Below, in pieces: positions 1 through 46,615 of a stretch of DNA of 64,000 nucleotides. Location: positions 62,001 to 126,000 of the forward strand of contig JADGKB010000018.1 in NCBI GenBank assembly GCA_027604185.1. The letters are read 5' to 3'. The stretch is from Boothiomyces macroporosus (Eukaryota > Chytridiomycota > Chytridiomycetes > Rhizophydiales > Terramycetaceae). The first letter of the stretch is position 1; every line of letters begins with the position of its first letter. Made by a program: the position numbers and the translations under genes. The notes beneath the pieces are model-generated. The model was not told the DNA's origin. It worked only from the letters and a program-made list of their open reading frames with translations, and ran no database searches.

Positions 1-1
1 G

Positions 2-1025: not shown

Positions 1026-2798
1026 ATGCATCTATCTGCCAAACTAGTCACTTTACTAGCTGTTCCTACTGCTTTTGCAGGATTATTCAACCTGATTCCG
1101 CCTGTGCAAGACTACTTGTGTCTTCCAAAGAATAGCCCAAACATTACTGCTCGTAACCAACAATTAGCCATCCAACAACAAAACTTTATTGACGGCCCAG
1201 GATTTTTTACTATTGCTAACCAACCAGGATACTTTCCAATGCCAAATGGTCCACAATTCACTCCAACCTGGTACCAATTGATGCTTTCTGAAATTGGTGA
1301 AATTGCTTATAGATCAAATGCATCTGCTTTCCAAGCTGAACAACTTATTCCGTATGACTTGGTGGCTGCTGGTATTCCAATCAATTCTCTAACTGATTTG
1401 ACAAACATGGTAGACTTTGAACTGACAATAGTACTACAACTTTACTTCAGCTATCCGTTTTCCTTATTCAATCATCAACTGGGAAGCCGATTCGTCATTT
1501 GGCCAAGACAGGTTATCATGGGGTGGATACTCTTTGAAAGCTGAAACTGCCAATGTGTTGAATGTCCCAGACACTATCACCGTACAACTCACTGGCTTAA
1601 CTTTTGCCCAGTTATTGTCCCAAAATAGAATCTACAAGGTTGATTATTCCAACATTGGTAGCCATATCTAACTTTAGGCAGCTATTCCAAATCAAACGTT
1701 GGTCAAGCAAATCCACTGGGACAATCCATTCCAGGTACTTATTTGAATTTGTACATTGATGCATCCGGAAATCCTTACCCTCTTGCTATTAAAGTAGTTG
1801 ACACTGGTTTGGTTTACACTCCTTTGGATGCTCCTGAAGATTGGATGTTTGCCAAGCTGGCTTTCTCCACTAGTGAAGGATTCTTTTTACCAATGGAACA
1901 CTTCCTGATTAACCACATGAGCCTTATCGCTGCCAGAGTAGAACTGATGCGCCATGTCTCTGTACAACATCCAGTATACGCTTTGCTTAGCCACCACTTT
2001 ACTGATTCCTATGGTAACATCATCTTTGGTGTACAAGCCTTGTTGCAAAATGGAACTGCTTTTGATACCATCTATGGTTGCGGTGGTTTGGGTGCTTCTA
2101 GATATATTGGTGATCGCACTTTGACCTACAACTTTACTGCCCAAAAGATCAATAACTGGTTCGCTGCTGCTGGAACTACAAATGTCCCAAATTACAAGTA
2201 CATGACTGATTTGCTTGCTATTCGCGCAGCTGTTGGCTCGTTTGTCCAAAACTATTTGAGCATCTACTACAGAAGCGATGCTGATGTTCAAAACGACCCA
2301 GAAATCCAAGCTTGGGCTGCAAACACTGCTTCACCATCTGGTGGAAATATGGTTGGTTTCCCATCATCCTTCTCCACTTTGTTCTCCCTTTCTGATACTA
2401 TTGCTGATCTAATTGTTTTCTTGACCGCTCAACACAATGTAATGAATGGTGAAGCTTCTTGGGATGGACAAGTTTTCCCAGCAAAACCTCATGCTATGTA
2501 CGGCCCTTTACCAACTGCTAAAGGCATTCCATCATCTAGAGCCTACCTAGCCCCTGTATCGCAATTGATTGCTGCTGAATTGGCATTACACTCTGCATTC
2601 TTGATTCCAACTCCCCAATCTGCTAAATTAGGTTTCTCCTACGGATCGACCCTTGGTCCATATAGCACCATCCCAATCACTATCTTCCAAATAGAATTAG
2701 ATATAATTTCAGATATCATTAACTTGAGAGAAGCTAAGAATGCTCGTAAATTCCTCAACTTGGATCCTGCTCAAATTCCATTCCAAGTTTGGATTTAA
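1026..2798 (+). CDS. Secreted lipoxygenase (576 aa, 2 introns)
   Basis: Three exons (1026-1409, 1432-1657, 1678-2798) joined across a 22-nt and a 20-nt intron give 576 residues. Residues 1-18 look like a signal peptide (MHLSAKLVTLLAVPTAFA). The lipoxygenase fold is shown by W-x-x-D-x-x-F-x-x-D-R-L around the second exon, the helix EHFLINHM (H278, H283) followed by RHVSVQHPVYALLSHHF, then AQHNVMN (H456, N460) and a C-terminal isoleucine (I576). Together these make the metal-ligand set His-His-His-Asn-Ile of the family. The 5-residue H-H spacing resembles iron lipoxygenases of plants and animals; I recall 4 in fungal manganese enzymes. It should dioxygenate polyunsaturated fatty acids outside the cell or in the secretory path. 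Without the introns the gene looks broken into two reading frames; with them it is intact. Confidence 0.88.
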
Positions 2799-2884
2799 AT
2801 CTGAATAAAGTTTGTCCTTTCCCACGATTTTGAATAATCATCTTTCCAGGCTTTCTATTTATTGTACCCGATTCTGTTTCGCTT

Positions 2885-4300
2885 TCAAAGTAATAGATGG
2901 AAATTGAATTCTATAGATGCAATTCTGAATTTTGCAATACAAACTTCACTGAATTTGTTGTCACTAACTTGAAGGTATTTCAACTTGCCAGTGGAAATAA
3001 TATGGAAAAAGTAAGGAAAACTGTCATCATCCAATGTGCCGTCAATTATCGATAAGCTGCTTATTGCCGTATCCCCAAAATATCTCGATATTTCTTTGAC
3101 GCCAGTATTTCCAATTTTTCCTGGTAGAATAATTGTGGTTAGAGAGCTATTTTTCTGAAGTGCTTGGAAGAGCATACCAACTGATTTGGCAGTCATGTGG
3201 GTGTAAGATAGAAAAATAATTTCTGTAAAGTAAAGATTATGGATATTTTCAGCAATTTTGCTGCAGAGGCTGTCCCCATCATTACTCCTAAAGCAAATGG
3301 CGGTTAATTTAGAGTTTGCCGATGCTTCAAGGAGCGACGGTATCATAATTGGTGTGATATTGAGATCCAAGTAAGTAAGCTGAGATGATGCCAGATTGTC
3401 AATCAGCTTTTTTTGAGTAGCGATAGTAATACTTCGGTCTTCACTCCATCTGTTTAATTTACAATTTGGCAACATTTGAAACACCAACTGGATATCATCT
3501 GCGTTGTATTCATTACCCAACATCGCAAGCTCAGTCAATTTAGTTTTGGGCAGTGAATTAATTAATGCTTCGAATCCCAGTCTTCCAATTTGATTTTCCA
3601 TCAATTCCAACACCTCCAACTTGGACTCTATGATTGCGGATGCAATAGCTACCGCACCATCGTCCATAATCTTGTTGAAATTCATCTTCAACTTGACTAG
3701 GTTTTTTATCCCTTTTGCTATTAGACTGACATCACTAGACGTCAGATCTAGGTTTATTAGCCATAGAGATGTAATATGGGTGAACTGTAACCTGTTTGCC
3801 AAAATAGTGCCGATGTTGCTGCACTCGCATTCAATCAGTTTCAGTTTCTCCAATTTGTTTGTATTTGCGAGAAGACTGTCCAAATATCCCTGCAGGCTGA
3901 GATCATGCAGCATTAAATAAACAGGACGATGGAGATTGGAAATTGCTGCCAGATATGGTTCAAAGCTGTCCTTGATTTTTATATCTACAATTCGCGACTT
4001 TGGCAAATGCGACAACAGAACACGAGGTTGATATTCCAAAACTGCACGTTCAAACTCCCAATTAATCATTTGCAAATATTTGATAGCACTTTCCTCTTCC
4101 ATTCCATCTGGCACTGCCAAGAATAAATCTGGCCAAATCTGATTAATTCCGAGCTGAAAGTTCCTTGACAGAACCCAAAGGGGCTGAAATCGACGATGTA
4201 TCTCTCGGTTGCCATGTCCCAAATTAAACACATCTTTTGCGGTTAAATATTTACAAATTTTCCCCTCTAGCAGTTCAAATGGTAAAGTGCAGATTGACAT
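2885..4300 (-). CDS. F-box/LRR protein (471 aa)
   Basis: The ATG at 4300 is chosen because the open frame upstream has only non-ATG codons. The N-terminus CTLPFELLEGKICKYLTAKDV is a typical F-box opening (LP-x-E/D-L-L). About 150 residues later a leucine-rich, ribonuclease-inhibitor-like repeat region begins (repeats such as KLEVLELMENQIGRLGFEALINSLPKTKLTEL, written here only as a type). By family knowledge F-box/LRR proteins are substrate receptors of SCF ubiquitin ligases. It is a diverged paralogue of the protein at 46994-48379, with the same architecture and similar length. It has no intron. It is divergent from the 7TM gene at 4378, with only 77 bp between start codons, so they probably share a promoter. 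The substrate cannot be inferred. Confidence 0.8.
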   Translation of the reverse strand: MSICTLPFELLEGKICKYLTAKDVFNLGHGNREIHRRFQPLWVLSRNFQLGINQIWPDLFLAVPDGMEEESAIKYLQMINWEFERAVLEYQPRVLLSHLPKSRIVDIKIKDSFEPYLAAISNLHRPVYLMLHDLSLQGYLDSLLANTNKLEKLKLIECECSNIGTILANRLQFTHITSLWLINLDLTSSDVSLIAKGIKNLVKLKMNFNKIMDDGAVAIASAIIESKLEVLELMENQIGRLGFEALINSLPKTKLTELAMLGNEYNADDIQLVFQMLPNCKLNRWSEDRSITIATQKKLIDNLASSQLTYLDLNITPIMIPSLLEASANSKLTAICFRSNDGDSLCSKIAENIHNLYFTEIIFLSYTHMTAKSVGMLFQALQKNSSLTTIILPGKIGNTGVKEISRYFGDTAISSLSIIDGTLDDDSFPYFFHIISTGKLKYLQVSDNKFSEVCIAKFRIASIEFNFHLLL

Positions 4301-4377
4301 GAAGAAATTTTCAAGTTGGATGGGGATAGTTGGAAATGACGTCGCCAACGAAAAAAGCTTTGATTTAATAGTCCTCG

Positions 4378-5862
4378 ATGGACATCTTCCAGTCTGGCTT
4401 CGTTACTGAAGAGTGTTCTAACGCGCCATTAACCATGTATTATTTGAACTCTACGAACGCGCAGTTGTACAATGTTTGGGCAGAGGAGATTACCGGTTTT
4501 GGTAATTGCGGTAACGATCCGCTTCCAGATGCAAAGGGATTTGGATGCTGCTCTTCATCGTTGGATCTCTCAGTGTCAGGAGGTTATCGATCGCTGTCGT
4601 TTAATCAAGTGGATAATTCTCAAGATTTGGCAAATTCAATTCCTAATTCAGCAAATAATAGAAACTATTGCCATATTGTCTCTGGCAATAGTACAAATAC
4701 AGGATTCTATGAAGGCTATTTCCTAGACACAAATAGTTGTCTAGACGGATTTATTCTTTGTACAACTTCCGAAATCAAGATATTCCCTCAAAGTCCGTGC
4801 AATGGATCCTATGAAACCTTTCCATTGACCTTTTTTGGTCAAAATGTATATTCCAACACCCTCGGCAACATCACGATTTCAATAGACACTGTCTTATCTG
4901 GGACTGTAGCGTTTACCTGGACCACCTACTATCCAGGATCGATGATGGTTCCAGTGAACAAGTGTCCTATGGAAATTTTACAGCTTATTACCATCATATT
5001 GGGGATCTTGGGATGGGTGTACGTGATTGCCATCCGACTGTATAAATTTTCAAAAGAACGGAAATTCATAAATGTATTTCTTCCTATAGGACAAGCGATA
5101 CTTCTTACAAAGACAATCATGTACACTTATGAAATTTACTCTATTATTGATAACCCACAAGCAGTTATCAATTTAGAAATTGCAAATACTCTATTGTTTC
5201 TGGGACATTTGATACTGAGTTTGACAACTGCAAATATAGTTAATGAGATGCTTTTTCTAGGAAAAATTGGTAGAATCGTCATGTACGTTGCAGTTACAAT
5301 CGTTCACTTTTCCCTTGCTGGATTCCAGTACTTGTTTGCGATTGTTTACCTTTTCAATGTTGATCCTACCTTCTTGTTTGGGTTGATAAAGTGGGAATCT
5401 ACTGAAATTTGGCTGATATTTTTTGAAATGATATTCGACTGTATTCCACCAGGGCTACTACTTTACAAAGTATTCATATTCTCTCAAAACAAAACCTTTG
5501 TGAAAGGCGGACAACAGAAATTTGACAGCTTTCAAAAAAAACTCAAAATTCTTTTTTCAGTCCAGTTCCTAGTTGTTGCGCTATACTTGATTATCCAATT
5601 TACATCAAGCTATACACGCATATATAGAACAGATAGAAATGCGTGGGCAACATTTGGCTTGGTCCAATTTCTAATCACCGTCCATTCGTGGGTGATTTTC
5701 AATTATTTTGAAGAGCTAAAAATGATTACTAAAGAAGTTTTCATGAACAAATCATCCTATGTTCCAAAAGCGATTTTAGATGAAAATAGGACTGCCGTCA
5801 GTAAAGGCAAATCCCATAGCAAGTTATTGGGAGAATCGCAAAGGGAATTAAAAAGTAAATAA
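4378..5862 (+). CDS. Orphan seven-transmembrane protein A (494 aa)
   Basis: Intronless. A Cys-rich, Asn-glycosylation-rich N-terminal domain of about 190 residues has no classical signal peptide. Seven hydrophobic helices follow at about 200-222, 231-255, 263-288, 296-325, 341-366, 386-408 and 419-444, then a charged tail. Features shared with its paralogues at 7777 and 9985 are a Cys-Cys pair before SSxDLS, NYCHI, the pre-TM1 segment VPxNKCPMEIxQ, FDCIPPGxLLYKV in TM5, YRTDRNAW before TM7 and FEELKxITxEV after it. The topology suggests an N-outside receptor, but I cannot place it in a known GPCR class. The stop codon overlaps AATAAA and lies 10 bp from the stop of the convergent oxidoreductase gene. 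Confidence 0.82.
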   Translation: MDIFQSGFVTEECSNAPLTMYYLNSTNAQLYNVWAEEITGFGNCGNDPLPDAKGFGCCSSSLDLSVSGGYRSLSFNQVDNSQDLANSIPNSANNRNYCHIVSGNSTNTGFYEGYFLDTNSCLDGFILCTTSEIKIFPQSPCNGSYETFPLTFFGQNVYSNTLGNITISIDTVLSGTVAFTWTTYYPGSMMVPVNKCPMEILQLITIILGILGWVYVIAIRLYKFSKERKFINVFLPIGQAILLTKTIMYTYEIYSIIDNPQAVINLEIANTLLFLGHLILSLTTANIVNEMLFLGKIGRIVMYVAVTIVHFSLAGFQYLFAIVYLFNVDPTFLFGLIKWESTEIWLIFFEMIFDCIPPGLLLYKVFIFSQNKTFVKGGQQKFDSFQKKLKILFSVQFLVVALYLIIQFTSSYTRIYRTDRNAWATFGLVQFLITVHSWVIFNYFEELKMITKEVFMNKSSYVPKAILDENRTAVSKGKSHSKLLGESQRELKSK

Positions 5863-5872
5863 AGCAGATTTA

Positions 5873-6954
5873 TTACGCTTGCTTTTTCCAAGATGAGGCG
5901 CTTTCTTTTGTAGGGACAAGAATAATTTTCCCAGTGTTTTTACGGTCTTCCATGTATTGGTGAGCGGCACCAACATCTTCAAAGGCAAATACAGAGTCTA
6001 CGACTGGTCTAACCCAACCGCTTTCAACTCCATCCAGTATACCTTGAATTGCACCACGATATTCTTCAAGCATATCAAACATGTGTCCCAGATTCACACC
6101 AAATACACCTTTGTTATCATCCATCAGTTTTAGAGGGGACCATTTGGGCATGTTGAACAAGAAATTGAGGAATGCAAATGCCTTGCTAATGATGTTCATC
6201 TCACCCAAGTCACTTAATGATGAGGCTCCAAACATTCCTAACCTTCCAGTCTTTTTCAAAAGAGAGTAGTTTACATTCCATTCCTTTCCACCGATAGGGT
6301 CGATAATCAAATCTACACCTTTGCCTTCAGTGATAGCCAGCACTCTATTTCTGACATTTTCAGTTCGGTAGTCAATAGCATGATGCAATCCGTGTGATTT
6401 TAAAAAGTCGTGCTTTCTTCCAGACGCAGTTCCGATTGTTTTTGCGCCTAAATGAAGGGCAATATCAATTGCGGCCAATCCAACACTACCGCCAGCATTT
6501 TGAATGAGTACAGTTTGATCTTTGCGCAAGCCTCCCATTTCGTAAATCAATACCCAAGCTGTGGTGTATACAACCAAAATACTAGCAGCATCAATAAATG
6601 AGAGCGAATCTGGAATAACAAACGTGTAAGATTTAGGTGTGACTGCGTATTCTTGTTGGCTGTTGAATCTTGTAAACGCAACTACTCGCTTGTTCAATAG
6701 TTCAGTTGCATCAGGGCCTTGTATTAATAGATATTACCTGTCTTGTCTACCACACCTGCTACTTCATATCCCATCGTGGTTGGGAAAGATGGAGCATCAG
6801 GATATAATCCTTTTCTCGCCATAATATCTGCAAAGTTCAGCCCGGCAGCTTCAACCTTGATTCTGATTTCACTTCCAGATGGTTCTGGTATTGGCTTATC
6901 CGCATTCTGCAAGATTGAAGGGGGGCCAGCTTTTGGGATTACAATGCTTTTCAT
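5873..6954 (-). CDS. Zinc-free quinone oxidoreductase / VAT-1-like MDR protein (353 aa)
   Basis: Two exons flank a 20-nt intron at 6718-6737 (GT..AG with ATTAAT), giving KTG|PDATELLNKRVVAF. The start MKSIVIPKAG at 6954 is the first ATG that fits the family N-terminus. The GroES-like half (AAGLNFADIMARKGLYP) is followed by the NADPH-binding Rossmann half (NAGGSVGLAAIDIALHLGAK) and the conserved GxxHAIDY segment. No zinc-ligand cysteines are visible, as expected for the quinone oxidoreductase branch of medium-chain dehydrogenases, closest in layout to VAT-1. It probably reduces quinones or enones with NADPH in the cytosol. The copy at 53483-54564 differs by two silent bases (6698 and 6844). Confidence 0.85.
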
Positions 6955-7154
6955 TGATTTAAAAATAATTTTTCCCAGCTTAAATACTGGCCGAAAAAAG
7001 GGCCACAAGTGTGCAAGAAATGCCGCAGACTTTCGCACACATTAAGTTGCCTCCGCCCGTCGGGTTTGGTGAAACAAAGTCCAGCTGCACTAAATAGAAA
7101 TGTGTCGCAATATCAAGTGTATGAATTGCATGTAGTTTATTACTGTTTATATAT

Positions 7155-7697
7155 TCAGTCACAATCGATTTGATGGCCTATCAGGACTGGTTTGTAGTTG
7201 AAATACAATGCAAAGAGCGCTTTGCTCAGGGCAGTATCATCAATGGCAGCATCAAGGTTGTTCCACAGATGAATTGTCTTTGTCGAAAAATCAACAGCGA
7301 CCTTGGGGTATAGCTGCTCCAATCTGTTTTTAACTCGATTGGCGCACCCTTCGCACTTTATCCCATCGAGCTTGTAATCATATTTATTGAAACATTTACC
7401 AGGTTGATTGTGTTTGAAGTTATTGTAGAATGAAACAATGTCTTGCGAAAGCATGATCAGAATAGTTAAAAGAAGCTGTGTGTATTTCCTATTTTTTAGC
7501 TGCATGAACAGGAACGGAAGAACGAGTAGTGAGAATTCCAGTCGGTAGGGAGTTAGTACCGCAAATCCGGCACAGCTGAGTGAAAAGTAGTTGAATATCA
7601 GTTGAATTATGCAACACGAACTGCTTAAAATCGCCAGCCCAAATGCCACGAAATCTTTCATTAAAAAAGGAATCAAAATTGGTTGGATAACGTTCAT
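7155..7697 (-). CDS. MerT-like membrane protein fused to an HMA metal-binding domain (180 aa)
   Basis: The N-terminal half has about three hydrophobic segments with the motif AILSSSCCIIQLIF and, after the second, LTPYRLEF. Both match the mercuric transporter MerT (vicinal Cys pair in TM1, then L-x-P-Y-R-x-x-F). The C-terminal half is a heavy-metal-associated domain with GIKCEGCANRVKN (CxxC) and the beta-alpha-beta pattern of MerP/ATX1. MerT-MerP fusions are known in bacteria, where they import Hg(II) for reduction; a role in metal ion uptake or trafficking is inferred. No mercuric reductase is visible nearby. Divergent from the 7TM gene at 7777. Five of the 14 inter-copy differences fall in this 543-bp gene and four change the protein (Y/D at 7205, R/S at 7323, S/N at 7576, I/M at 7608). 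Confidence 0.7.
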   Translation of the reverse strand: MNVIQPILIPFLMKDFVAFGLAILSSSCCIIQLIFNYFSLSCAGFAVLTPYRLEFSLLVLPFLFMQLKNRKYTQLLLTILIMLSQDIVSFYNNFKHNQPGKCFNKYDYKLDGIKCEGCANRVKNRLEQLYPKVAVDFSTKTIHLWNNLDAAIDDTALSKALFALYFNYKPVLIGHQIDCD

Positions 7698-7776
7698 AAA
7701 AATCAGTATGGTGTGACGTCATACTGAACGGAACAATAGATTAAGACGTGAGCGTTATTTTGCTTTTCTGTTTAGT

Positions 7777-9231
7777 ATGCTCGTATTTCAGTCAGTATTT
7801 AATAGCGAACAATGTTCAGATATTCCAATATCCATGTACACCCTTGACAGTCGACAGTCGCGTTTGTTCAAACTTGCCAGCATATATAATCCGCCGTTTC
7901 CTAGGTGTGGGTTGGAAACCTATTCAGATCCAAATGGAGTGGGGTGTTGTTACTCGTCTTTTGATTTGACACTTTCGATGGGATATCCATCATTCTCCTT
8001 TGCCAAGATTCTCGACCCGACAACCTACTCTAATCTAATGCCAAAATCTTCTATCAATCAGAATTACTGCCATATTATATATGGCAACAGCACAATTTAT
8101 GAAGGCTACTACCTTAACTCTGGAAATTGTCTTGATAATCGTATTACTTGCACCAATGGAATTTTGAATATTTATAATGCTTCATCAGGTTGCAATGGGG
8201 CTTACGAATCATTTGCAATTACTCCAATTGCAAACAATGTGGTTTCAAATTACTTTGGCAATCTGACGATTTCTTTTGACTCTATACAGTCAGCATCTCA
8301 GACTTATCAATGGACTACTTTTTTCCCACTAGCACTAATGGTTCCAGAAAATAAATGCCCCATGGAGATAATACAAACCGCTGGTTTGGCGATAGCTTTT
8401 CTTGGTCTTATTTACGTGATTGCAATCCGATTACTCAGGTTTTACAAAGATAGAAGGTTCAGCAATGTTATACTACCGATTGCGCAAATGATGCTTCTAG
8501 TTCGAATTATCCTCTATGTGTATACAACTTATGCCGATTATATTCCTGACAGCTCCATCTTGGCCATTACGATCGTCCTGTCCTTTTTCTTTTTGGGCCA
8601 CCTGGTACTTGGATTGACATCCGCCAATATTATCTCCAAAATTTTGTTTGGAAACAAGTGGCAAACATTTTCATTGTACCTTTTGGTAGTAATTGTTCAC
8701 TTTGGGCTCATGGGATTTCTATATGTTGAAACTGTGTATGAAGCTGAACATTTGAATACGTCCTTCTTTGCGAAAAACAGTGTTGCAATCAACTCATTGC
8801 AGACATACTACATATTTGCAGAAATGATGTTTGACTGTATTCCTCCTGGTGTTCTACTGTATAAAGTTTTGAAACTCACCAGATCAAAAAAGATGACTAC
8901 AGTAGCGAAAAGTAAATATGGCTATTTTAAAAAGAAGCTGCTCATCCTGTTTGGAGTGCAATCCTTGGTAGTTATAGCCCTTTTGATTTTCCAACTTGCG
9001 AAAACATATACTAATTGGTATCGAACAGATCGAAATGCCTGGTGCGTATTCGGTATATCTAACTTCCTGATTGTAATTCACGCTTTGGTTATTTTCCACT
9101 ATTTTGAAGAATTAAAGATTATTACCCAGGAAGTGTTTGTGAAGAAGGCTTCTTTCACACCAAAGTACAACGACCACGCTACATTAGCACATCCAATTAA
9201 GTTGAATGGTAGCAAAGAGTTGCTCGAATAA
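7777..9231 (+). CDS. Orphan seven-transmembrane protein B (484 aa)
   Basis: Second member of the tandem 7TM family, with the same architecture as the protein at 4378. It has a Cys-rich N-terminal domain (GVGCCYSSFDLT, NQNYCHI, NCLD), the linker MVPENKCPMEIIQ, seven helices from about residue 198 to 440, the FDCIPPGVLLYKV and YRTDRNAW motifs, and the FEELKIITQEV tail. It has no intron. It differs from the copy at 55387 by seven bases, of which only 8759 changes the protein (Thr to Met). The first ATG in frame is used; a second methionine is not near. Function unknown; a surface receptor is an inference from topology alone. Confidence 0.82.
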   Translation: MLVFQSVFNSEQCSDIPISMYTLDSRQSRLFKLASIYNPPFPRCGLETYSDPNGVGCCYSSFDLTLSMGYPSFSFAKILDPTTYSNLMPKSSINQNYCHIIYGNSTIYEGYYLNSGNCLDNRITCTNGILNIYNASSGCNGAYESFAITPIANNVVSNYFGNLTISFDSIQSASQTYQWTTFFPLALMVPENKCPMEIIQTAGLAIAFLGLIYVIAIRLLRFYKDRRFSNVILPIAQMMLLVRIILYVYTTYADYIPDSSILAITIVLSFFFLGHLVLGLTSANIISKILFGNKWQTFSLYLLVVIVHFGLMGFLYVETVYEAEHLNTSFFAKNSVAINSLQTYYIFAEMMFDCIPPGVLLYKVLKLTRSKKMTTVAKSKYGYFKKKLLILFGVQSLVVIALLIFQLAKTYTNWYRTDRNAWCVFGISNFLIVIHALVIFHYFEELKIITQEVFVKKASFTPKYNDHATLAHPIKLNGSKELLE

Positions 9232-9284
9232 ACCTTTTCATTACCCTCTGCTGCGAACAATGACTTTTTACTAAGCTCCAACGA

Positions 9285-9650
9285 GGGCATTTCAAACCAG
9301 GAAGATTGCCCAAGTCTTCCAAGCGCCGTATACTATCTGGAACTAAATCAATTCGTTGTGCTTGATCTGGTTACCGATTGCAATCCCCAATTAATTGATG
9401 TGGATGACCCATAGCCAAATAGTTTCGCTTGCCGCACATCATCTTTAGATCTGTCACCCACTCCTAGTTTTCCATTAATTTTAGTTAACATGGTTAAAGG
9501 CATATTCCATTTTGTAGAAGTAACACAAATTCTCGTTGTATGACTATGCTCTCATTATTTTCCACTAGTACAAAGAGTTGAAAACAGCTACTTTGAAAGT
9601 TACTATTATGAACCAAAAGCGCAAACCAAATAGGTTCAGGCCGAGGTAAT
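9285..9650 (+). pseudogene. Collapsed relic of a fourth 7TM family member
   Basis: Translation of about 9285-9480 gives an N-terminal domain fragment (QEDCPSLPSAVYYLELNQ, LVTD, an in-frame stop, then CRTSSLDLSP) that aligns with the protein at 9985 (EECGDPPSTVYYLPSNQ, LVTE, CCTSSLDLS). After about 60 unrelated bases, about 9545-9650 gives ALIIFH-stop-YKELKTAT, matching the family C-terminus (ALVIFHYFEELKSIT). The whole transmembrane region is missing. This is an internally deleted, stop-containing pseudogene lying between family members B and C. Confidence 0.75.
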
Positions 9651-9984
9651 GCAAAGGTCAGCAGGCAAAGTGGAAGTGTTTGGAACTGATAAATCCTCTG
9701 GTACCGAGTTAGTATAGTATAAATTTGATTAACTGACTATCACCGAATATATGATTGTGTAAACCCGTTTGACAGCGCGATAACTTCCCCTGCATCTAGT
9801 ATTTGGATACTTCCAACTTTGCAAACAGAGTTGTACTACAATCAACCAAAGTATGCTTTTACCAGTTGCGAGCATTATAATTGATCGGTAACACATGTTT
9901 TCATTATTAATTTTTCCATTATTCACGACATAAAGTAAACAATGGCAGTTTTCTTTTGCTCATTCGAACACATTCTTTAATATA
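9651..9984. other. Intergenic, no gene seen
   Basis: This stretch lies upstream of 7TM gene C. A TATA-like GTATAAATTTG occurs near 9717, far from the ATG at 9985, and TTAATATAATG directly precedes the start. I see no open frame with recognisable similarity. Confidence 0.5.
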
Positions 9985-11427
9985 ATGAATATATTCCAGG
10001 CAGGATATTTTACCGAAGAATGCGGAGATCCCCCTAGCACAGTATACTACTTGCCCTCTAACCAATCAGCTCTGTACGGTCTGGTTACGGAAGAATATGA
10101 ACCACTTGGTTACTGTGGCTTCAATCCAAAACCACAGTCAAATGGAATCAGCTGCTGTACCTCCTCATTGGATTTATCTATGACTTATGGTTACCATTCC
10201 ATATCAATGAACTATGTACTGAATGACAATCTCGAGCAATATTTCCCAGCAAAGTCCATAAACCAGCAATACTGCCATGTAATTTCATACAATAGTAGTA
10301 AGAGCGGATACTATGAAGCTTTTTTTCTCAGCTCGGGTGAATGCTTTGACAAGCATTACAGATGTACTCCTCAAGAATTCCAAATATACCAAAATGAAAG
10401 CTGTTTCGGCAATACCGAACGTTTTCAAATAGATGGACAGGTAGGAAATGTTACTTCTGCAATACTGGGCAATTTAGGACTTTCCTTGATGACTATTACG
10501 GAGGGTCAAGTTTATTTTACCTGGACTACATATTTTCCTCCATCATTGTTAGTACCCTTAAACAAATGTCCAATGGAGATTATTCAGACCACATGCATTA
10601 CTATTAGCATTGTCGGTTACATTTATGTAATCTTTATACGGTTAATTCGATATGCAAAAGTACGAAAATCAATGAACCTATTCATGCCCCTCGCACAGCT
10701 CATGCTACTAACGCGTATAATCCTTGCGACGTGTACACAGTATGCTCAAAATTGGAGTCAAATGCAAGTGCTCATAGTCGAATTTTTGATTGACATTTTC
10801 CTTTTGGGACACTTGATCCTTGGATTGACGACATGCAACATAATTGTAGATATAATATCTCCAAAGAAAATTTATGTGATCGCGCTATACACACTAGTCG
10901 TCTTGGAACACTTTGCGATATTTGGATTGACCTATGTATATGATATATTGAGCTTTTTTGACCCAGCCTCAATCTGGACATTTACTCCAATTCAAAATCT
11001 GCCAACCGTACACTATTTGATTGAAATATTATGGGATTCGATACCGCCTGGACTGTTGCTGTACAAAATTACAATATTAATCAAAGACAAAAAATTACCA
11101 ATGAATTCCAGACAAAAATACTCGCAATTTCAAAAGAAACTGATTGCACTCTTTGGAATCCAACTACTAGTCCTCCTATCTTATTTACTTTTGTTTGTCA
11201 CTTCAACTTGGACTTTAGTCTTTCGAACAGATCGAAACCAATGGTCAACTTTTGGAATTTCTCAGTTTCTTTTATCAATTCATGCACTGGTGATTTTCCA
11301 TTACTTTGAAGAATTGAAATCTATCACGCAAGAAGTTTTGGTCAGAAAACCTACTCCAATACCAAAAGTGAGGGAAGATAGAACTGCAGCTAATATCTTT
11401 AGTGAGGATTATTTGAATAAAGATTAA
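9985..11427 (+). CDS. Orphan seven-transmembrane protein C (480 aa)
   Basis: Third intact member of the tandem family. The N-terminal domain carries GISCCTSSLDLS, QQYCHVISYNSS and ECFDKHYRC. VPLNKCPMEIIQT precedes TM1, and seven helices follow to about residue 445. TM5 reads WDSIPPGLLLYK (the Cys of FDCIPPG is replaced by Ser), and FRTDRNQW replaces YRTDRNAW. It is the most diverged of the three. It has no intron. AATAAA lies inside the last codons (TTGAATAAAGATTAA), and the convergent small secreted protein gene ends 18 bp downstream. Identical in the two copies. Confidence 0.82.
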   Translation: MNIFQAGYFTEECGDPPSTVYYLPSNQSALYGLVTEEYEPLGYCGFNPKPQSNGISCCTSSLDLSMTYGYHSISMNYVLNDNLEQYFPAKSINQQYCHVISYNSSKSGYYEAFFLSSGECFDKHYRCTPQEFQIYQNESCFGNTERFQIDGQVGNVTSAILGNLGLSLMTITEGQVYFTWTTYFPPSLLVPLNKCPMEIIQTTCITISIVGYIYVIFIRLIRYAKVRKSMNLFMPLAQLMLLTRIILATCTQYAQNWSQMQVLIVEFLIDIFLLGHLILGLTTCNIIVDIISPKKIYVIALYTLVVLEHFAIFGLTYVYDILSFFDPASIWTFTPIQNLPTVHYLIEILWDSIPPGLLLYKITILIKDKKLPMNSRQKYSQFQKKLIALFGIQLLVLLSYLLLFVTSTWTLVFRTDRNQWSTFGISQFLLSIHALVIFHYFEELKSITQEVLVRKPTPIPKVREDRTAANIFSEDYLNKD

Positions 11428-11445
11428 TCGCAGATATTTTATTGT

Positions 11446-11694
11446 TCATTTGCTGGTGTAACAAGTAGTTGCGTTGACTTTGGAGCGATAGTTGCTACAT
11501 CCAGCACGACCGCAAGCAGCATAACAAGGGTAATTGTGGACACACTCTCCAAAGCAGTTGTTGTATGGATTGTTCCATTGATAGCCTACTGGGCGACAAA
11601 AGGTTTGGCCAGGATATGGGGTGCAATCTACGGTTAGTTGACCTTGATTGTGGTTAGCGGAAACGATGGCAAAGAGACCAAACAAGTAGTGCAT
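11446..11694 (-). CDS. Small secreted Cys-rich protein (82 aa)
   Basis: The ATG at 11694 is preferred over upstream codons of the same frame, because TATAAAAA at 11717-11724 sits 22 bp before it and MHYLFGLFAIVSA is a good signal peptide. The mature part of about 68 residues has eight cysteines (in DC, FC, NNC, EC, PC, AAC, GC, TTC contexts), fitting four disulfides, and many Asn/Tyr residues. I do not recognise the family. Its 3' end is convergent with 7TM gene C. Candidate extracellular ligand or effector; function not assignable from sequence. Confidence 0.7.
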   Translation of the reverse strand: MHYLFGLFAIVSANHNQGQLTVDCTPYPGQTFCRPVGYQWNNPYNNCFGECVHNYPCYAACGRAGCSNYRSKVNATTCYTSK

Positions 11695-12283
11695 TTGGAG
11701 ATACTCAATCCTCCTATTTTTATAGTCTTTTGAAGCATGTGGAACACACGTTGGTTCCCTAACTGTGCCATTTTCGTGCTTTATTTCAATGCACAGCGCA
11801 GCAGAAGCGTGATCTTGGTATTTCTCTCTTGCAATCAAGAAATCTTGACTGTTACCGTTCTTTTAATGCTGCCAATGTTGAGCGAGCGGTAAAGCGAAAT
11901 CAAGCATTCCAGAGATGCAATGTTCTTTTAAAAACAGAAACTAAACGGTCCCAAAGGTGCGATTTCGAAATTATATCTGTACTGTTAGTTTGAAAAAAGT
12001 AGTAAATTGTATGAGTGTCTTTGACGAGGCGGACCCGGCATTGGTTGTAGGTAATTTTAATCCATTCAATGATTCTGATGTGTTTACAAAGAATTCCAAT
12101 CGATTATAGAAAACCATTATAGGGAATTATTGTATCTGTAGTTTATCCATTCGGCGAAATGAGCTCTCGGCAATGACGAATTGGCTGAGACCTTAACAGG
12201 AAATCAAAGGATGATTAATATTCGGGCATTCCGAATTAGAATGTATCTATATAAACTAGCACCAAGACAAGTCTCTAAATAAG
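11695..12283. other. Intergenic with a short NPF-containing frame
   Basis: No complete gene is seen. At 12011-12109 (+) an ATG frame of 32 codons reads MSVFDEADPALVVGNFNPFN and ends at a stop. This resembles the N-terminus of secretory carrier membrane proteins (SCAMP), which carry NPF repeats. No transmembrane part follows, so it is at best a gene fragment. The rest is AT-rich and featureless to me. Confidence 0.35.
11717..11724 (-). promoter_or_regulatory. TATA box of small secreted protein gene
   Basis: TATAAAAA on the minus strand, 22 bp before the ATG at 11694. It decides the start and implies an extremely short leader. Confidence 0.55.
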
Positions 12284-13025
12284 ATGAAATTAGCCCTTTT
12301 CGTTTGTGTACCACTTTGTTAATACTAGGATCATCCATATAAAAGTCCAGCAACAGATAATATAGACTATGGTACTCGCGCCTAATTATAGTTGAGCTGT
12401 TCACCAATCTGTTTGGCGAATTGACTGTCTTTGACGTTACGAAAGAAGAATACCCATCAAATCCTACAGACTATGGCCTTATTATCATAACTGGATCGCG
12501 CCATAGTTGTTTGGAGACTTTGCCTTGGATTAATAGACTAAAGCAGTTTGTAAAGCAGTACGACAACAGTCCAATTAGGTTTGTTGGGATTTGCTTTGGG
12601 CATCAAATAATTGCGTTAGCCTTAGGTGGCAGTGGTATGAAACAGCTAATTTAGCAATCAGCAATCCAAAAGGTTGGGAAATTGGGCGAATATCAGTAGA
12701 GTTGAACAAAAACAGTCAAACAATACTTGGAAGAGAGAGTATTGCGATTCAAGCAATACATAAAGATCATGTGGTACAACTCCCACCAGGGTTTATGAAT
12801 CTAGGTTCAACAGATATGACAACTGTCCAATGCATGTACAAACCGCGTAAATATTTTACCCTTCAAGGACATCCTGAATTGGCGGCTAAACATATACATG
12901 CACTCATTGATAGAGCTGTTTGTGCTGGAGTATTGACATCTGAACTTGCGTCATCTCTTGCAGATATGGATCTGCCTTTGGATAGCGAATGGATTGCACA
13001 TGCTGTTCAAGACCTCCTGCTTTAA
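12284..13025 (+). CDS. Class I glutamine amidotransferase-like protein (226 aa, 3 introns)
   Basis: Four exons are joined across introns of 21 nt (12308-12328), 20 nt (12372-12391) and 20 nt (12635-12654). The product starts MKLALFVCDHPYKSP and continues through DYGLIIITGSRHSCLETLPW. Catalytic residues of the GATase triad are present: Cys in GICFGHQ and His-x-Glu in LQGHPELAAK. The layout matches the stand-alone GATase group that includes yeast YLR126C and plant gamma-glutamyl peptidases; the physiological substrate is uncertain. The last exon ends CTGCTTTAAAATAAA, with a poly(A) signal right after the stop. The ATG follows AAATAAG and no better start exists upstream. Confidence 0.87.
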
Positions 13026-13183
13026 AATAAATTACTGCACCCTTTGACGTAATAGCATTCGTTCAGCAGTCTAGATTTCTTGAAAGAATCTAGGTATTTT
13101 AAAACGTTAAATATCTCACAGAACAAGCTAATCCGTCATCTGTAATGCCAAGGGCAACTCCTTAAAAACCCGGTTAAAACTAT

Positions 13184-14060
<877 letters not shown>

Positions 14061-14885
14061 TTAGACTTTATTCAAAAAGTGGTAGACAGCGTCCATAAAT
14101 TCGTTTGGTCTACTCGCATGAACCCTAGGATCAGTATTAGTTACCAATGCCCGGCGTCTATCTTGGCAAACTCGCTGTTTGGAAACAGTTTCGTTATCTC
14201 TGGGTAATCCTCATCCTTAATGTAATCGCTTCTAGTTCCTTGAATGAACAGCGTATCGCCTGTATAAGTGCCTGTTCTATCGAATCCCCAAACGCTATCA
14301 ATAGCATCATTCAGCGCTTCCAAGTTTATCCTAAACTTGTAGTCTCCTTCATCTTGTTTAAGATTAGTCAGCAGGAATTGCCGAACAGCTAATTCTGGGA
14401 TAGTACGCGCTAGGAATTCATCTGCCTGCTTTACACTAGTAATTCCAAGCTCAGCTAAGCTAATCATTTCCTTGATGTATTGTTTAAATAAGGACCCAGA
14501 TTTAATTGGAAGAGGAGAGACATCCACCACAACCAGTTTGTTTAGTAATTGCGGTTCATCTAATGCTACATACATGGACACTTTTCCTCCCATACCTGGA
14601 TTAACACTAAATACTGTGTCCCATTAAATTAACCGGCCCAAGCGGTTTGATGAATTCTTGAACATCCAAGGCCATGAGGTCATAAGAATGTAGAGCTGTG
14701 TGAGGCGAATCTCCGTGGTTTCTTAAATCCAGGGCAAACACTTCAGAATTCAACTTTTTGGTTAGTGATTTGGAGAGCGATGTCCAGTTTTGCTTAGAGC
14801 CAAACAGTCCTGGGAGAATAACTAGTGGTGGATTTTTTATTACTGCGGGTGTGTATTTGTTGAATGCCAGCTTTACAGTGTTCAT
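14061..14885 (-). CDS. ABHD11/Imo32-like alpha/beta hydrolase (261 aa, 2 introns)
   Basis: Three exons are joined over introns of 19 nt (14596-14614) and 20 nt (14125-14144). The fold is shown by PPLVILPGLFGSKQNWTSL, then DLRNHGDSPH, the nucleophile elbow GHSMGG (Ser codon split by intron 1) and the terminal AGHWVHASRPNEF with the catalytic His. This set is characteristic of the mitochondrial ABHD11/YGR031W esterases. No clear mitochondrial presequence is visible, but the start at 14885 is the only ATG. AATAAAG lies within the final codons (AATAAAGTCTAA). The gene starts 45 bp from the SNT1 stop. Confidence 0.85.
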
Positions 14886-14929
14886 TTCAAAGATTCAAAA
14901 TTTTCAAAAGAATGTTTATTTACTTTAAA

Positions 14930-28940: not shown

Positions 28941-30541
28941 TTACTGTTCTGATAATATTCCAAAGGCGTTATCCTTTAGATAGCCTAAACAAGATTGGAT
29001 GTCAAGTGAATCTGCCCTGTAGCCAATGTATCCATCAGGTCGAACAAGTAAAACAGCAGTATTCTGAACTTGAAAGTCCTTGTAATGTTCTTCTTTGGCT
29101 ACTTTCACCATGCCAACCACACCTGTTCTTTTCAACTCATTTGTAAATTTATCGTCCTTTGAGCCAAAGATAACAGCAGTGTAACCCTTAATTGCTGATG
29201 GCGACAACCCCAGTTTTTTGAACAGCATTGGCGACAACTGTCTTCCGGCAAGTATTGTTGTAGCAGTAGATTTCCCGTAATTTAAAGTCAAATCTCCTCC
29301 GTACTGAATTGAAGTTAATGCTCCGATTCTAGTTCGCTTTGCTTTGAAACCAGGAACAAAATTAACAAATGTATACATTGCAATATTGCGAATATACTTG
29401 GCAATTCCAGTTAGTTCAGCTGAATCTTGCTGTTGTTGCAATGATTTGATTAATCGCTCTCCTTCTTTCCTTCTTTCAAGGGCATATGTTTTCAACAGTT
29501 CTGGAGAAGCAAGGTTGTTAATTACAAAAGCGAGTTTCCACCCAATATTCACTGCTTCGTGAACCCCATAGTTCAATCCAAGACCAGCTGATGGTGAACT
29601 ATATTAGCATTATTGTACCTAGAGTGACCAGCATCACCAGCCAAGAAAATTCTATTGTCATTGGAGTATTTGTCAGCTAATCTGTGATGAACTCTGAACC
29701 TGGTTGTCCAAACAACTTCTTTAGCTTTGAATTCAACGTTGAATCTCTCTTGAATCAATTTTTCAATTTCTTCCAGTGGGATTGGAAGAAGATATGGAAG
29801 ACCATGAGAATCCAATTCCTTAGTTACGTATCCTCGTTCTTCTTCTTCAGATAAATCCAGTGCAATTGCCATGGTGTTATCAGGAAGCCCAAGCATGTAT
29901 CCAACTCCTTTGCTGGAATAAAACAATCCAAGATCAATGCCAGAAGGTAATTTGGAATCAGTAGAACAATGAATACCAACAGAGCCATGCTTTAGGGTCG
30001 TTCCTGTGTACCCAATCCCCAACTCCTTTCTTACTCTGGATTTGGCTCCATCACACGCCACCATGTAATCCACCTTGATTTCCTGTCCGTTTGACAAAGC
30101 AACTTGAATATAATCACCCAAATCTTTAAATGACTCGAGAGCAACACCTCTGGTTAATTGAACCCCACGAGCTTTCAAGTAGGTGGTCAATTCCAGTTCT
30201 GTCTTCCATTGCTCAACATTGCAAAAGAATGGATAATCCGTTAGCCTCTTTAGTTCCGCACCAAATTCAATTGACGTGAATTTGTAGTTTTCAGAGTGAA
30301 AATTCACACAGGTCCATCGAGTCCCTTGTTCTGATAGCCGTTTGCCAACTCCATCGTAAAGATCAAGCAATTCCATGGTTCTTGGCACCAAACTTGTTCC
30401 TTTGGTCAGCTTTTGTGGTTCATCCAAGCTGTCAATAATAAGAAATTCGGATGCATCAACTCCTTGTCGTGCAAGTTCAGCAGCAACGGTCAAACCAGTA
30501 GGCCCTGCACCAACTATTAAGGCTTTATATTGAGATTTCAT
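28941..30541 (-). CDS. FAD-dependent aromatic-type monooxygenase (526 aa, one intron)
   Basis: Two exons flank a 20-nt intron at 29599-29618, joining AGDAGHSS|SPSAGLGLNYGVHEA, the second FAD-binding motif. N-terminal dinucleotide-binding motif VGAGPTGLTVAAELARQG, the DG motif (MVACDGAKSRVRKELGI) and the GD motif (FLAGDAGH) are all present, so it belongs to the PHBH-fold FAD_binding_3 hydroxylases. The C-terminal part ends with a thioredoxin-like segment (AVLLVRPDGYIGYRAD), as in phenol and pentachlorophenol hydroxylases. Substrate unknown, probably a phenolic compound, using NAD(P)H and O2. The start MKSQYKALIVGAG at 30541 is typical. Confidence 0.88.
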
Positions 30542-37260: not shown

Positions 37261-38479
37261 TTACTTTGAGTTTATTACATTATACAAGTCGTCAAAAGCC
37301 GTTTCGTCAAATACCACTCGTTCATGAGCAACTTCTTGAATCTTGACTGGAACTTGCAAATACTTTTGAATGAAGCCGTAAATTAGAGAATCCTGGATCT
37401 TATGCGCTTCAACAGGGTTAGAACCACATTGCTTGGCCATTGACATAATCTTTGGGTACAGCAACCCAAAATCTGAAGCATCATTGTGCTTTGTGTCTTT
37501 GATGTAAGCTACTTTGGTTTCGGCCTTTTTGCTCCTCTCAACGAGTCGTTGTACTGCATCAAGATTGGACTTCCAATGAAACACCTAGGATTAAAATTAA
37601 ACTTACGTGACTTTGAAGATTCATGTGAGGTATGTGGATTTCTGCTTCTGGATTGACGGCATGCATCCACGGATCAAGAATAACAGCACATTTGAAATTA
37701 ATTTCATTCGCTTCCAAAACATGGATACTCGTGGCTCCCTAATATAAAACCAAAATTACCCCAAAGGAATGGCCAACAAGTGCCTTGTTGTCAAAATCAA
37801 ATCTATTCTGGAACTGGTTGAGTAAAGTATTCTTTTTAGATTCATCTTTTGAATAAATGAAACTGTCATCTCCGGAATCAATTCTCTTTAACAATTCTAG
37901 CACTGTATAAACTTCGTTTTTGCGATGTGTCAGTTGCGACCTTCTGAAACGCAAGGCATACTCTGTTTCGGTTTCACCATCCAACACTTCTTCCTTTGCA
38001 GGATGATGATAAGGGATTTCCAAATCATTAGCATGTCTGACAGTGGCACAAGCTGATCCGTCACCGTGCTCAATAGCAGCAACTATAAATCCTCTTGAAG
38101 CTAAATTTCCACATAGATTGGAATACGTAGTACGCATACCGGCTAATCCATGAGAAAATATAACCACAGGTAACTTTGTTGGAAGAGAAGCAGTTTCGAG
38201 CGGTGTTTCCTTGAACGCAGCTAATTTTGTGTATACCAGGAATGGATAAATAAACGTCGAGATTAAATAAGTCGGAATATTAAGGAAATTTCCGTATCCT
38301 TTGGAGTAGAACCATCCTTCAGGTAGCCAATTCTGTTTTGGTGCAGAGGTTGTCGAAGTGGGGTAATATAATCGGAAGAGAACACCCTTCCTTAGCGGTG
38401 AGTTGCCATCTGGGTTTGATTCGATATCTACAAATCCTACTTTATGTGGTCCTTGATAATTTGGCAGGTTGGCAAACAT
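37261..38479 (-). CDS. PAF acetylhydrolase-family lipase (391 aa, 2 introns)
   Basis: Three exons flank introns of 21 nt (37739-37759) and 22 nt (37585-37606). The start at 38479 (MFANLPNYQGPHKVG) is chosen because TATAAATT (38507-38514) lies 27 bp upstream. Motifs match the plasma/intracellular PAF-AH II group: LPVVIFSHGLAGMRTTYS, ASRGFIVAAIEHGDGSAC, the nucleophile elbow VGHSFGGAT (split by intron 1), ILDPWMHAV with the catalytic Asp and IKDTKHNDASDFGLLYP with the catalytic His. It likely hydrolyses short or oxidised sn-2 acyl chains of phospholipids. No signal peptide is visible, so an intracellular place is likely. Confidence 0.88.
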
Positions 38480-38572: not shown

Positions 38573-39754
38573 TCAGTATTTATTAGCAATTTCTTGAATG
38601 TCTTTAGATTGCAAATAGGAAATCAACGTTGCGTTCTCTTCTGGAGTGCCAACAGTAATTCTCAAGCATCCGAGACAACCGAGTTCGTTTCCTCTGAATC
38701 TAACTACAACCCCACTGATTTCAGCTAAATGCTTGTAGATATCCATTGCTACTCCATTGTCGGGAATGCCTTGCTTGTTTACAAACTGTGCGAGTACAAA
38801 GTTAGCGTCATGAGTCCCTAAAAATCCACCAATAAATGGTAGTTTTGACATTTGGATCATCAGTAGTTTACGCTGCTCTTTGATTGACGCAACATAGCTT
38901 GCCATTACTGGCAATCCATCTCCTAGGGCCTGATTTGCAATATTGGATGTCAAAGTAGAGATATTGTATGGTGCCTTTGTATTGTTGAATATTTGGGCAA
39001 TCTCTGGTGATGATATAGTATATCCTAATCTACATTAACTCCAACTACCTGATTCCTGCCAATCCGAATGCTTTTGAGAGAGTCTGGCTGACAATCAAAT
39101 TTGGATATTTTTCTACTAAAGACGAGCAAGAGGCATCAGCACAAAAGTCAATATATGCTTCATCGACAAACACAATTCCTTTAAATCCAGATTCCAATAT
39201 TTGGACAATGTCAGTCTGTGCAAGCAAAGTCCCAGTAGGGTTTCCAGGCGAACACAAAAACACAAGTTTGATTGTTGGGTCTTGTTGGATTTCCTTTAAT
39301 ATCTGAAATTAAAAATAATTACACTTGGAACATCCAATTGAAACTTTCCGCCCTCAACAATCAAAGGTACTTTGGCAATTCCAGCATCGTTGATGTTTGC
39401 GGATACAGAATACATTCCGTAAGTTGGAGGAGTGATCAATATCTTTTCTTTTCCAGGTTGAACAAATACTCTGATCGCCATATCAATACATTCATCGCTT
39501 CCAACCCCCAAAAAGAATCGGTTTGTGGATTGAATATTACGGAGCTTGCACAGCTTTTCCTTTATTTCCAGCTGATAAGGATCTGGATATCTTTCCAAGT
39601 TCCCATTTACAAAGCTGGAATTTTGTGGTAGCGATGACCCGTGAGAGTTTTCGTTTGCATCCAAGAGAATTCCAGAAGAGTAATCGTCTCTGGCGCATCT
39701 GTAAGGCTTTAATGCGTAGATGTTTGGTCTCACAATTGATTTTAAATCAAACAT
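38573..39754 (-). CDS. Histidinol-phosphate aminotransferase (380 aa, 2 introns)
   Basis: Three exons flank introns of 20 nt (39303-39322) and 19 nt (39030-39048). The joined protein is MFDLKSIVRPNIYALKPYRCARDDY, then LDANENSHGSSLP, LGVGSDECIDMAIRVF, TPPTYGMYSVSANIN, CSPGNPTGTLL, VDEAYIDF and SQTLSKAFGLAGIRLGY, where the Lys of SKAFGLAGIR binds pyridoxal phosphate. Length and motifs match class II aminotransferases of the HIS5/HisC type that convert imidazole acetol-phosphate to histidinol phosphate. The organism therefore probably makes its own histidine, which argues against a highly reduced intracellular parasite. Divergent from the unknown gene at 39986. Confidence 0.93.
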
Positions 39755-45221: not shown

Positions 45222-45310
45222 TTGCTCCTATTTATATTACACTAGTACTAATAATAAAAAATTCTAGTAATTCCAACTTTTTGAATTTTTATTTTTTTTT
45301 TCAAATCAAA

Positions 45311-46615
45311 ATGACTCGCAATTGGGACATTATCCAACAGGGAGACTGGATAGTTATTAAAATGCCATCTGGAAACCAAAAATTAATCCAGCTACAACCA
45401 AATGTACAAATTGAACTTGGAAAGTTTGGAAAGTTTCAATCGTCAGAACTGATTGGAAAATATTACTCTGTTCCATTGGAAATATACGATAGAGATAAAC
45501 TGAAACGAGTCGAGAATACGGATTACTTATTAGACTTTGAAATAGATCCTAGAGTTGAAACTGATGCTACCAACCAAGAGATTTTCGATGATGCAAATTC
45601 CCAAAAACTAACTCAAAAAGATATTGAAGAAATGAAGCTAAAGAGCTTGGATGGCAGCGTTCATCACCAAACCATAATCAAAGAAATTGTGTCCAATAAT
45701 GAAAAGTTTAACGAGAAAACCGAGTTTGCCAAAGCGAAATATATCAAGCGCAAAGTCAAAAAGTAATATTTGCTAATTCAGGTATTCCAAAATCTTTATC
45801 CCACTGTTTCCTAACGCACGCAATTTGATCGAGTATCACAACTTGAAAAATCCTGAAAAGATTCACGAATTACGAATTGATTCTTTATCTCAAATACTGA
45901 CATATGCCAATGTGCGTGCTGGTAGCCGGATGTTGGTTTGCGATGACACTGGCGGTCTGTTGGCGACTGCGATTTTGGAAAGAACTCATGGACTTGGAAC
46001 TTGTTACTTTTTCCATGATGGTCAGAATGCTAGTTTGGAAATAATGAAATGCTCCAACTTTTCAAATGAAGTATTATCCTCTTTCAAAACCTTTGCATAT
46101 CAAAACATTGGAAAACAGCCTGAACTACGAGGTGTGTAGTGTTAATAATAGAAATTGAAGAGGGCGCTGATGTAAAGCCAGAGTTAATTGAGAAAATCAA
46201 CGCCAGAAATGCCAATATCAAAGAAACTTTTTCTACTCTAGAGCAAGGAGGGTTTGATTCGTAAATTTCGACTAAATCTAGTTTAATAATATCAACTAAA
46301 TTTGATACAACTGAAGTAATTAAAAAGCTGGAGCAGTTTTTAGCACCATCTGCTATAGTGGTTGCATACTCTGCCAGAAAAGAGTTGATTTTGGAAGCTT
46401 ATGAATATTGTCGCAAGTCTCCTTCATATGCAAACACTTTCTTGACAGAAAGTTGGTTGCGTGAATATCAAGTTCCCGTATTCACTTCAGGAACGCATCC
46501 AAATATGATGATGTCTGGTTCTGGTGGATTTATATTCAGTGCAACAACAGTGACTACTCCCGAAGGCTTGGTTATTGACAAAACTACAAAGCGAAGAAAG
46601 ACTAGTAAAAACTAA
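45311..46615 (+). CDS. TRM6: tRNA m1A58 methyltransferase non-catalytic subunit TRM6/GCD10 (414 aa, 3 introns)
   Basis: Four exons flank introns of 19 nt (45763-45781), 20 nt (46132-46151) and 21 nt (46261-46281). The joined protein shows the Gcd10/Trm6 order: an N-terminal GDWIVIKMPSGNQKLIQL beta domain, IIKEIVSNNEKFNEKTEFAKAKYIKRKVKKYSK, a degenerate Rossmann domain (AGSRMLVCDDTGGLLATAILER), and the C-terminal WLREYQVPVFTSGTHPNMMMSGSGGFIFSATTV, close to the family's WLREYQVLPxRTHPxMxMxxxGGYILSG. It partners TRM61 to methylate A58 of tRNAs in the nucleus. All introns disrupt the frame, so the intact family sequence after removal confirms them. Confidence 0.93.

Follow-up and report, generated by a model that had tools for sequence, protein, structure and literature searches.

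Introns of about 20 nucleotides across the genome of the chytrid Boothiomyces macroporosus

We examined a 64,000-nucleotide (nt) stretch of the chytrid fungus Boothiomyces macroporosus, hereafter the window (assembly GCA_027604185.1, contig JADGKB010000018.1, positions 62,001 to 126,000), in which an earlier note had described introns of about 20 nt and taken them to be the norm of the whole genome. The window is part of contig C18 of an assembly of 15.2 Mb and 216 contigs, from which further loci were sampled. Gene-finder controls and pattern counts over the whole genome bear out the note, confirming that the predicted introns of about 20 nt are real and genome-wide, with nearly all of them at 19–22 nt. 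They are very probably ordinary introns of the U2 spliceosomal type, reduced to the smallest size that the spliceosome of this fungus can physically handle. Comparison of three proteins, AFG1, HisC and Isy1, with public sequences places the organism at Boothiomyces or beside it. Boothiomyces lives freely in soil and belongs to the same family as Terramyces (Rhizophydiales, Terramycetaceae).

Intron lengths in gene models and across the genome

The first gene finder used codon usage and start and stop codons only, and accepted any GT..AG segment of 10–150 nt at equal cost, with no motif and no length preference. Over 22 loci (207.6 kb) and positions 1–48400 of the window, it placed 188 GT-AG introns, 76 of which were 18–22 nt long. 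With each of eight control dinucleotide pairs, 174–194 introns were placed and just 3–14 had that length. Two features weaken this run: its codon table had been trained on GT-AG models, and two of its loci, L003 and L004, are copies of window sequence. Both loci were dropped from the motif-matrix, length-prior, gene-model-free spacing and tail analyses.

Two further runs place nearly all introns in a single narrow length mode below about 25 nt. In the motif-matrix run, which had a flat length prior and matrices trained on introns of the codon-usage run, so that it is not independent of the latter, 140 of 201 introns measured 19–22 nt, with nothing below 19 nt. When the motif columns were scrambled, in three runs, 26–40 introns fell at 18–22 nt, and calls of 23 nt or more stayed at decoy level (61 with the true motifs against 71–84 with scrambled ones). 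The length-prior run favoured 18–24 nt and covered window positions 1–48400 plus 24 loci (248.6 kb). Here 277 of 281 introns fell within 18–24 nt, with 3, 67, 118, 57, 23, 6 and 3 introns at 18, 19, 20, 21, 22, 23 and 24 nt, respectively. Extrapolation from 277 introns per 248.6 kb gives roughly 17,000 in the whole assembly, a figure inflated by duplicated contigs. An early motif model with a weak intron penalty strung long false introns across genes and was discarded.

The GTA that had been seen at the 5′ end recurs in 157 of 182 introns (genes scoring above 10, motif-matrix run). Counted over the whole genome, a single exact layout (GTA, YTAAY, AG) gave 3271 matches to its 19-nt form and 2124 to its 20-nt form, against 279 and 220 for the reversed pattern, a control that keeps composition, not dinucleotides. 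The 18-nt form had 96 matches (control, 258), a 34-fold fall from the 19-nt form. The exact layout therefore has a floor: with one nucleotide fewer on the 5′ side, the class vanishes genome-wide. Within the window, the strict 20-nt pattern matched nine times (three of them repeat copies) against 0.49 expected. The match at 2623–2642 lies antisense within a gene and was taken as chance.

Branch site and spacing

A typical intron starts with GTA, carries its branch A at nt 14–16 (mostly 14 or 15) and runs a further 5–6 nt to the end of the AG, giving 19–22 nt in total. The introns pair a GT donor, or in one case a GC donor, with an AG acceptor. Among 235 introns from genes scoring 15 or more, 228 contain a branch-like site scoring at least 11 out of 13, a threshold that admits TTAAA and GTAAC; at least 165 are exact YTRAY. 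With sites chosen under the length prior, the branch A lies at nt 14–16 in 203 of the 228 and at nt 17–18 in two, and it is followed by 5 or 6 nt in 186.

The same spacing emerges without a gene model, with the limit that here, as in the genome counts, the motif itself was taken from gene-finder introns. In 36 sequences (284.6 kb, including an overlap of about 2.9 kb between L033 and L034), the GTA-to-branch distance put the A at nt 14, 15 and 16 in 119, 59 and 20 cases, compared with a mean of 5.3 per position over nt 22–70, and no second peak appeared up to 70 nt. The first AG stood 5 or 6 nt past the branch A in 192 cases with the A at nt 14–16; this peak was absent for sites with the A at nt 24–26. 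A spacing control with GA was not clean and also rose at nt 14–16 (21, 25 and 11), because AG followed by A fits the GA control too. Together, the two sets of counts place the branch point at a fixed position. The branch site does lie close to the 3′ AG, as the note had it, but the spacing is more tightly constrained on the 5′ side, where 14 nt separate the 5′ end from the branch A. Ahead of the branch site, T is the commonest base at four of the six positions 5–10 when the A is at nt 14, and at all six when it is at nt 15.

The length of 59 of the 235 tiny introns is divisible by three, and an in-frame stop occurs in 44 of these 59 and in 103 of the other 176. The gene finder is biased against stopless introns of such lengths, so that selection is not established by this excess.

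Intron removal restores conserved proteins

Removal of the tested introns restores the conserved proteins of four window genes, encoding an AFG1-like ATPase, HisC, proteasome subunit alpha type-7 and a PP2C phosphatase, all on the minus strand. In these junction-aligned genes, only introns of 18–21 nt are used.

The AFG1 gene has five introns, each called by the gene finder and examined in an alignment of relatives: 22771–22791 (21 nt), 23151–23169 (19 nt), 23554–23571 (18 nt, with the branch A at nt 14 and 4 nt after it), 23695–23713 (19 nt, inside the Walker A motif GNVGTGKS) and 23799–23817 (19 nt, in a poorly conserved region). The second lies in a variable region, with a one-residue gap beside the junction relative to five of seven relatives. 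Once all five are removed, the protein has 445 amino acids, the length of its counterpart in Boothiomyces sp. JEL0838, from which it differs by 4 substitutions in 445 (99% identity) with all five splices alike. In the alignment with the other relatives, two junctions, in Walker A and at QLRTQYG, fall in conserved blocks and the remaining three in more variable ones. The public JEL0838 protein already implies these splices, and the information is thus already in the databases.

The two HisC introns, at 39030–39048 (19 nt, inside SKAFGLAGIR) and 39303–39322 (20 nt), were likewise called by the gene finder and aligned. The Walker A and SKAFGLAGIR junctions, which the note had singled out as restored motifs, each align with seven relatives. 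Walker A is gap-free, and both HisC junctions are gap-free except the first one against the Globomyces sp. JEL0801 model. That model goes wrong at the first HisC intron site; this may reflect a shared tiny intron, a single case that was not used as evidence. The best HisC relative is Terramyces sp. JEL0728 (89%). When viral contigs were scanned with the HisC alignment, 18 loci were found at 26–30% identity, none of them close to a chytrid.

Both gene-finder introns of the proteasome gene, 13577–13596 and 13722–13741 (20 nt each, the former also a strict-motif match), leave gap-free junctions against solved alpha type-7 chains. The PP2C gene carries seven introns. Five were placed by the gene finder: 21265–21284 (20 nt), 21410–21428 (19 nt, with one 2-residue gap just upstream), 21539–21559 (21 nt), 21607–21626 (20 nt, strict motif) and 21952–21971 (20 nt, beyond the aligned stretch). 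Two of 20 nt, missed by the gene finder, were placed by eye: 21795–21814, with the branch site CTGAT, and the GC-AG intron 21886–21905. With all seven removed, the protein aligns to protein phosphatase 1K (PPM1K) over a stretch that takes in six junctions, five of them gap-free; at the GC-AG junction the PPM1K structure has one extra residue. From this one intron, GC donors seem to be tolerated at 20 nt.

The splicing machinery

Among the parts of the splicing machinery that were examined, U1, U2, U6, SF1, U2AF65, Yju2 and Cwc25 look canonical. U1 contains the pairing site ACUUACCUG, U2 the branch-pairing site GUGUAGUAUC, and U6 keeps ACAGAGA; U2 and U6 score over their cut-offs. The branch-site consensus of the tiny introns can pair with U2 GUAGUA. 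Two diverged U2 loci were seen (L023 on contig C80 and L024 on contig C178), with the branch-pairing region intact in both.

The earlier note had expected alterations in SF1, U2AF and Prp8, and these were not seen. SF1 has its usual domains (helix-hairpin, KH and two zinc knuckles), U2AF65, which aligns to its solved counterpart, shows three RRM stretches, and the PROCN domain of Prp8, a protein modelled in its first part only, scores 774.8 bits. Yju2 scores 225.9 bits. Cwc25 keeps MGGGDLNLKKSWHP, which the solved CWC25 homologue 5yzg also has. The Cwc25 gene lies in a 3111-base stretch that is identical in L040 (contig C49) and L041 (contig C100), and the assembly therefore contains duplicated regions.

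Among the parts examined, the only altered one appears to be the N-terminus of Isy1, which reaches into the catalytic centre. Isy1 starts with MARNEEKAQSML in Spizellomyces, Fimicolochytrium, Obelidium and other chytrids. Globomyces, Kappamyces, Gorgonomyces and Batrachochytrium are, like Boothiomyces, members of the Rhizophydiales. The starts here are MAPKTLAQKQE in Boothiomyces, MANNQKEKQKS in Globomyces, MPRVKIARED in Kappamyces and MPPKASQLLAK in Gorgonomyces; the Batrachochytrium salamandrivorans model has a later start, MLYRFREAQ, and so keeps the next segment. Among the 120 Isy1 matches listed, 117 begin with M and 58 of these 117 with M[AS]RN. Because many of the others begin at an inner Met or with MARS, an annotated Isy1 that lacks the usual start is weak evidence. 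The Isy1 start is also unsettled in this genome: where the public model calls for an intron of about 49 nt, ours needs a pair of 20-nt introns separated by a 1-nt exon, and the two models disagree at one further intron. The search puts the identity to Isy1 of Boothiomyces sp. JEL0838 at 94% and the alignment at 98%, with differences mostly where the gene models disagree.

Introns, repeats and other genes of the window

Positions 47611–64000 of the window are a direct repeat of 1–16390 (14 mismatches in 16390, all within 6698–8808), and the intron tally was therefore restricted to 1–47610. There, 34 introns of 18–22 nt were placed, 32 from the length-prior run and the two PP2C introns found by eye: one of 18 nt, seven of 19, 18 of 20, six of 21 and two of 22 nt. 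The first and last of them match exactly the interval 1410–46281 given in the note, which had counted 37 introns, 36 of them at 18–22 nt. The same run placed a 33rd intron, of 165 nt (13902–14066), which was rejected because it fuses the alpha/beta hydrolase gene with the proteasome gene.

Unless stated otherwise, the remaining introns were placed by the gene finder. On the plus strand, a lipoxygenase-like gene (Pfam PF00305) contains 1410–1431 (22 nt), which is less certain in that a flat-length model preferred a 79-nt alternative, and 1658–1677 (20 nt). A class-I glutamine amidotransferase gene has 12308–12328 (21 nt) and 12372–12391 (20 nt), both with Pfam support and a gene score of only 2.9, and 12635–12654 (20 nt, strict motif). 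The intron 20703–20722 (20 nt, strict motif) lies at the start of ribosomal protein uS10 (S20e), where the downstream protein aligns from residue 4. In a Gcd10/Trm6-like gene, matched by Pfam, are 45763–45781 (19 nt), 46132–46151 (20 nt) and 46261–46281 (21 nt).

On the minus strand, Pfam matches accompany 6718–6737 (20 nt) in a zinc-type dehydrogenase, 14125–14144 (20 nt) and 14596–14614 (19 nt) in the alpha/beta hydrolase, 29599–29618 (20 nt, strict motif) in an FAD monooxygenase, and 37585–37606 (22 nt) and 37739–37759 (21 nt) in a PAF acetylhydrolase-like gene. Two 20-nt introns, 20015–20034 and 20267–20286, interrupt the gene for a large Ser-rich protein with, by eye, SANT-like repeats. 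The 21-nt intron 26829–26849, in the gene for an 880-amino-acid protein, comes from the motif models; an early run preferred a 12-nt alternative.

Contigs C20 and C36 also carry direct repeats, 45,067 bp and 42,184 bp apart; a comparison over 1501 bases showed no difference within either pair. No match to the window was seen for the terminal 2 kb at either end of C18. Direct repeats 42–48 kb apart are possibly haplotypes that the assembler joined head to tail. Between 30917 and 45221, seven intronless HMG-box-like genes of one family (KKPLNSFF.YRK) lie on both strands within 14 kb, a local expansion; one member was tested (Pfam HMG_box) and the rest were assigned by eye. Three related intronless genes at 4378–11427 encode, by eye, multi-pass membrane proteins; the one tested had no Pfam match.

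Discussion

How could a spliceosome work on so short an intron? U1, and then U6, would pair with about nt 1–6, and U2 with about nt 10–16. The 3–4 nt left between the two pairings may be the shortest linker that permits branching, and for that reason the 14-nt floor would be the spliceosome's own ruler. Since the few nucleotides after the branch cannot hold a pyrimidine tract, U2AF65 would bind the T-rich stretch before the branch, or work mainly through SF1 and the AG. Shrinkage driven by deletions would have been halted at the 14-nt floor, leaving uniform lengths. More tentatively, and with less than even confidence, we propose that the tiny introns arose in the chytrids around Boothiomyces in which the Isy1 N-terminus, MARNEEKAQSML in other chytrids, was replaced, in parallel to Stentor. 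This replacement might free room for a 14-nt lariat loop, and the floor might then be a direct in vivo measure of the shortest path from 5′ splice site to branch point that a branching spliceosome can span.

Several points weigh against a uniform class of U2-type introns held at this floor. The splicing of the tiny introns is read from DNA sequence. In 23 of the 228 branch-scored introns, the best-scoring site has its A at nt 9–13, below the floor, and may be mis-scored. The strict patterns account for only 70 of the 277 modelled introns of 18–24 nt, and the upper length tail is less certain than the floor, as the length-prior models favoured 18–24 nt. A few introns may be longer, for example that of about 49 nt at the Isy1 start. 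As for the machinery, U1 falls just below its cut-off (68.8 against 69.5 bits), the unspliced U2AF65 match reaches 230.7 bits, below the NCBIfam cut-off of 310.3, and the small nuclear RNA (snRNA) search was confined to U1, U2 and U6.

The alternative that survives best, which we nevertheless regard as unlikely, is that the tiny introns coexist with a normal, longer class missed by our methods. Every model made some longer calls, and the public Isy1 model implies one such intron, but the longer calls do not rise above the scrambled level, the GTA-to-branch spacing lacks a second peak, and the AFG1, HisC, proteasome and PP2C genes use introns of 18–21 nt only. It is far less probable that the segments are kept in the mRNA and bypassed by ribosomes, or removed from the DNA in some cells, because in their ends, branch motif and spacing they look like U2-type introns, and the genome encodes the snRNAs and branch-site proteins to match. 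A further alternative, that the segments are frame-breaking indels introduced by sequencing or assembly, an outcome the earlier note had named as its refutation, we judge refuted despite the near-identical blocks 42–48 kb apart on three contigs: errors would not be expected to produce GTA...YTAAY..AG at fixed spacing in 2124 plus 3271 exact copies against 220 plus 279, and the public JEL0838 AFG1 protein reads across the same five junctions.

Ordinary U2-type introns at their minimum length would bring the minimal-intron question into a kingdom with well-studied spliceosomes, in an organism whose snRNAs and branch-site proteins look normal, and would provide a natural test of minimum intron length. 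Structural models will have to reproduce the 34-fold decrease from the 19-nt to the 18-nt form, and the parallel with Stentor in Isy1 singles out one protein segment. Gene models of such chytrids would be broken by an annotation that sets its minimum intron length higher.

Genomes with uniformly ultrashort introns are already known, and this one would be the first among Fungi to judge by a limited literature search: no report of introns this size in Fungi was found in titles and the starts of abstracts, mostly without subscription literature. In a survey of 644 fungal genomes, the introns of Cryptococcus, 63 bp on average, are called relatively short (PMC8476143), and microsporidia, in Fungi or their kin, have relatively short introns, but few or none of them (PMC10245619, PMC8476143). 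Uniformly ultrashort introns have been described for ciliates, for a relict algal nucleus and for a lineage of rhizarian parasites (PMC9505925, PMC4035089, PMC10245619). The chytrid introns are near, and not at, the shortest known, since those of Stentor (15–16 nt) and mikrocytids (16–17 nt) are shorter. Mikrocytids, parasites with a strongly reduced spliceosome, share the narrow size range and conserved sequence (PMC10245619). The ciliates Paramecium and Nyctotherus likewise have only ultra-short introns, but of about 25 nt (PMC5014332). Chlorarachniophyte nucleomorphs have introns of 18–24 nt, most commonly 19 nt in two species, the same length range as here; a nucleomorph is, however, a relict endosymbiont nucleus of a few hundred kilobases, compared with our 15.2-Mb assembly (PMC4035089). 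The earlier note had itself named nucleomorphs and Stentor. In Stentor coeruleus, the branch A lies at nt 10–11 with a 5-nt tail, 18% of genes have introns, the Isy1 N-terminus is reported not to be conserved and the Gly plug of Cwc25 is lost (PMC9505925). Boothiomyces resembles it in uniform ultrashort, A/T-rich GT-AG introns, a fixed branch position, canonical U1, U2 and U6, the Isy1 N-terminus and a tail of 5–6 nt; unlike Stentor, which has no strong branch consensus, it combines a strong consensus and a branch A mostly at nt 14–16 with a Cwc25 plug that is kept (PMC9505925).

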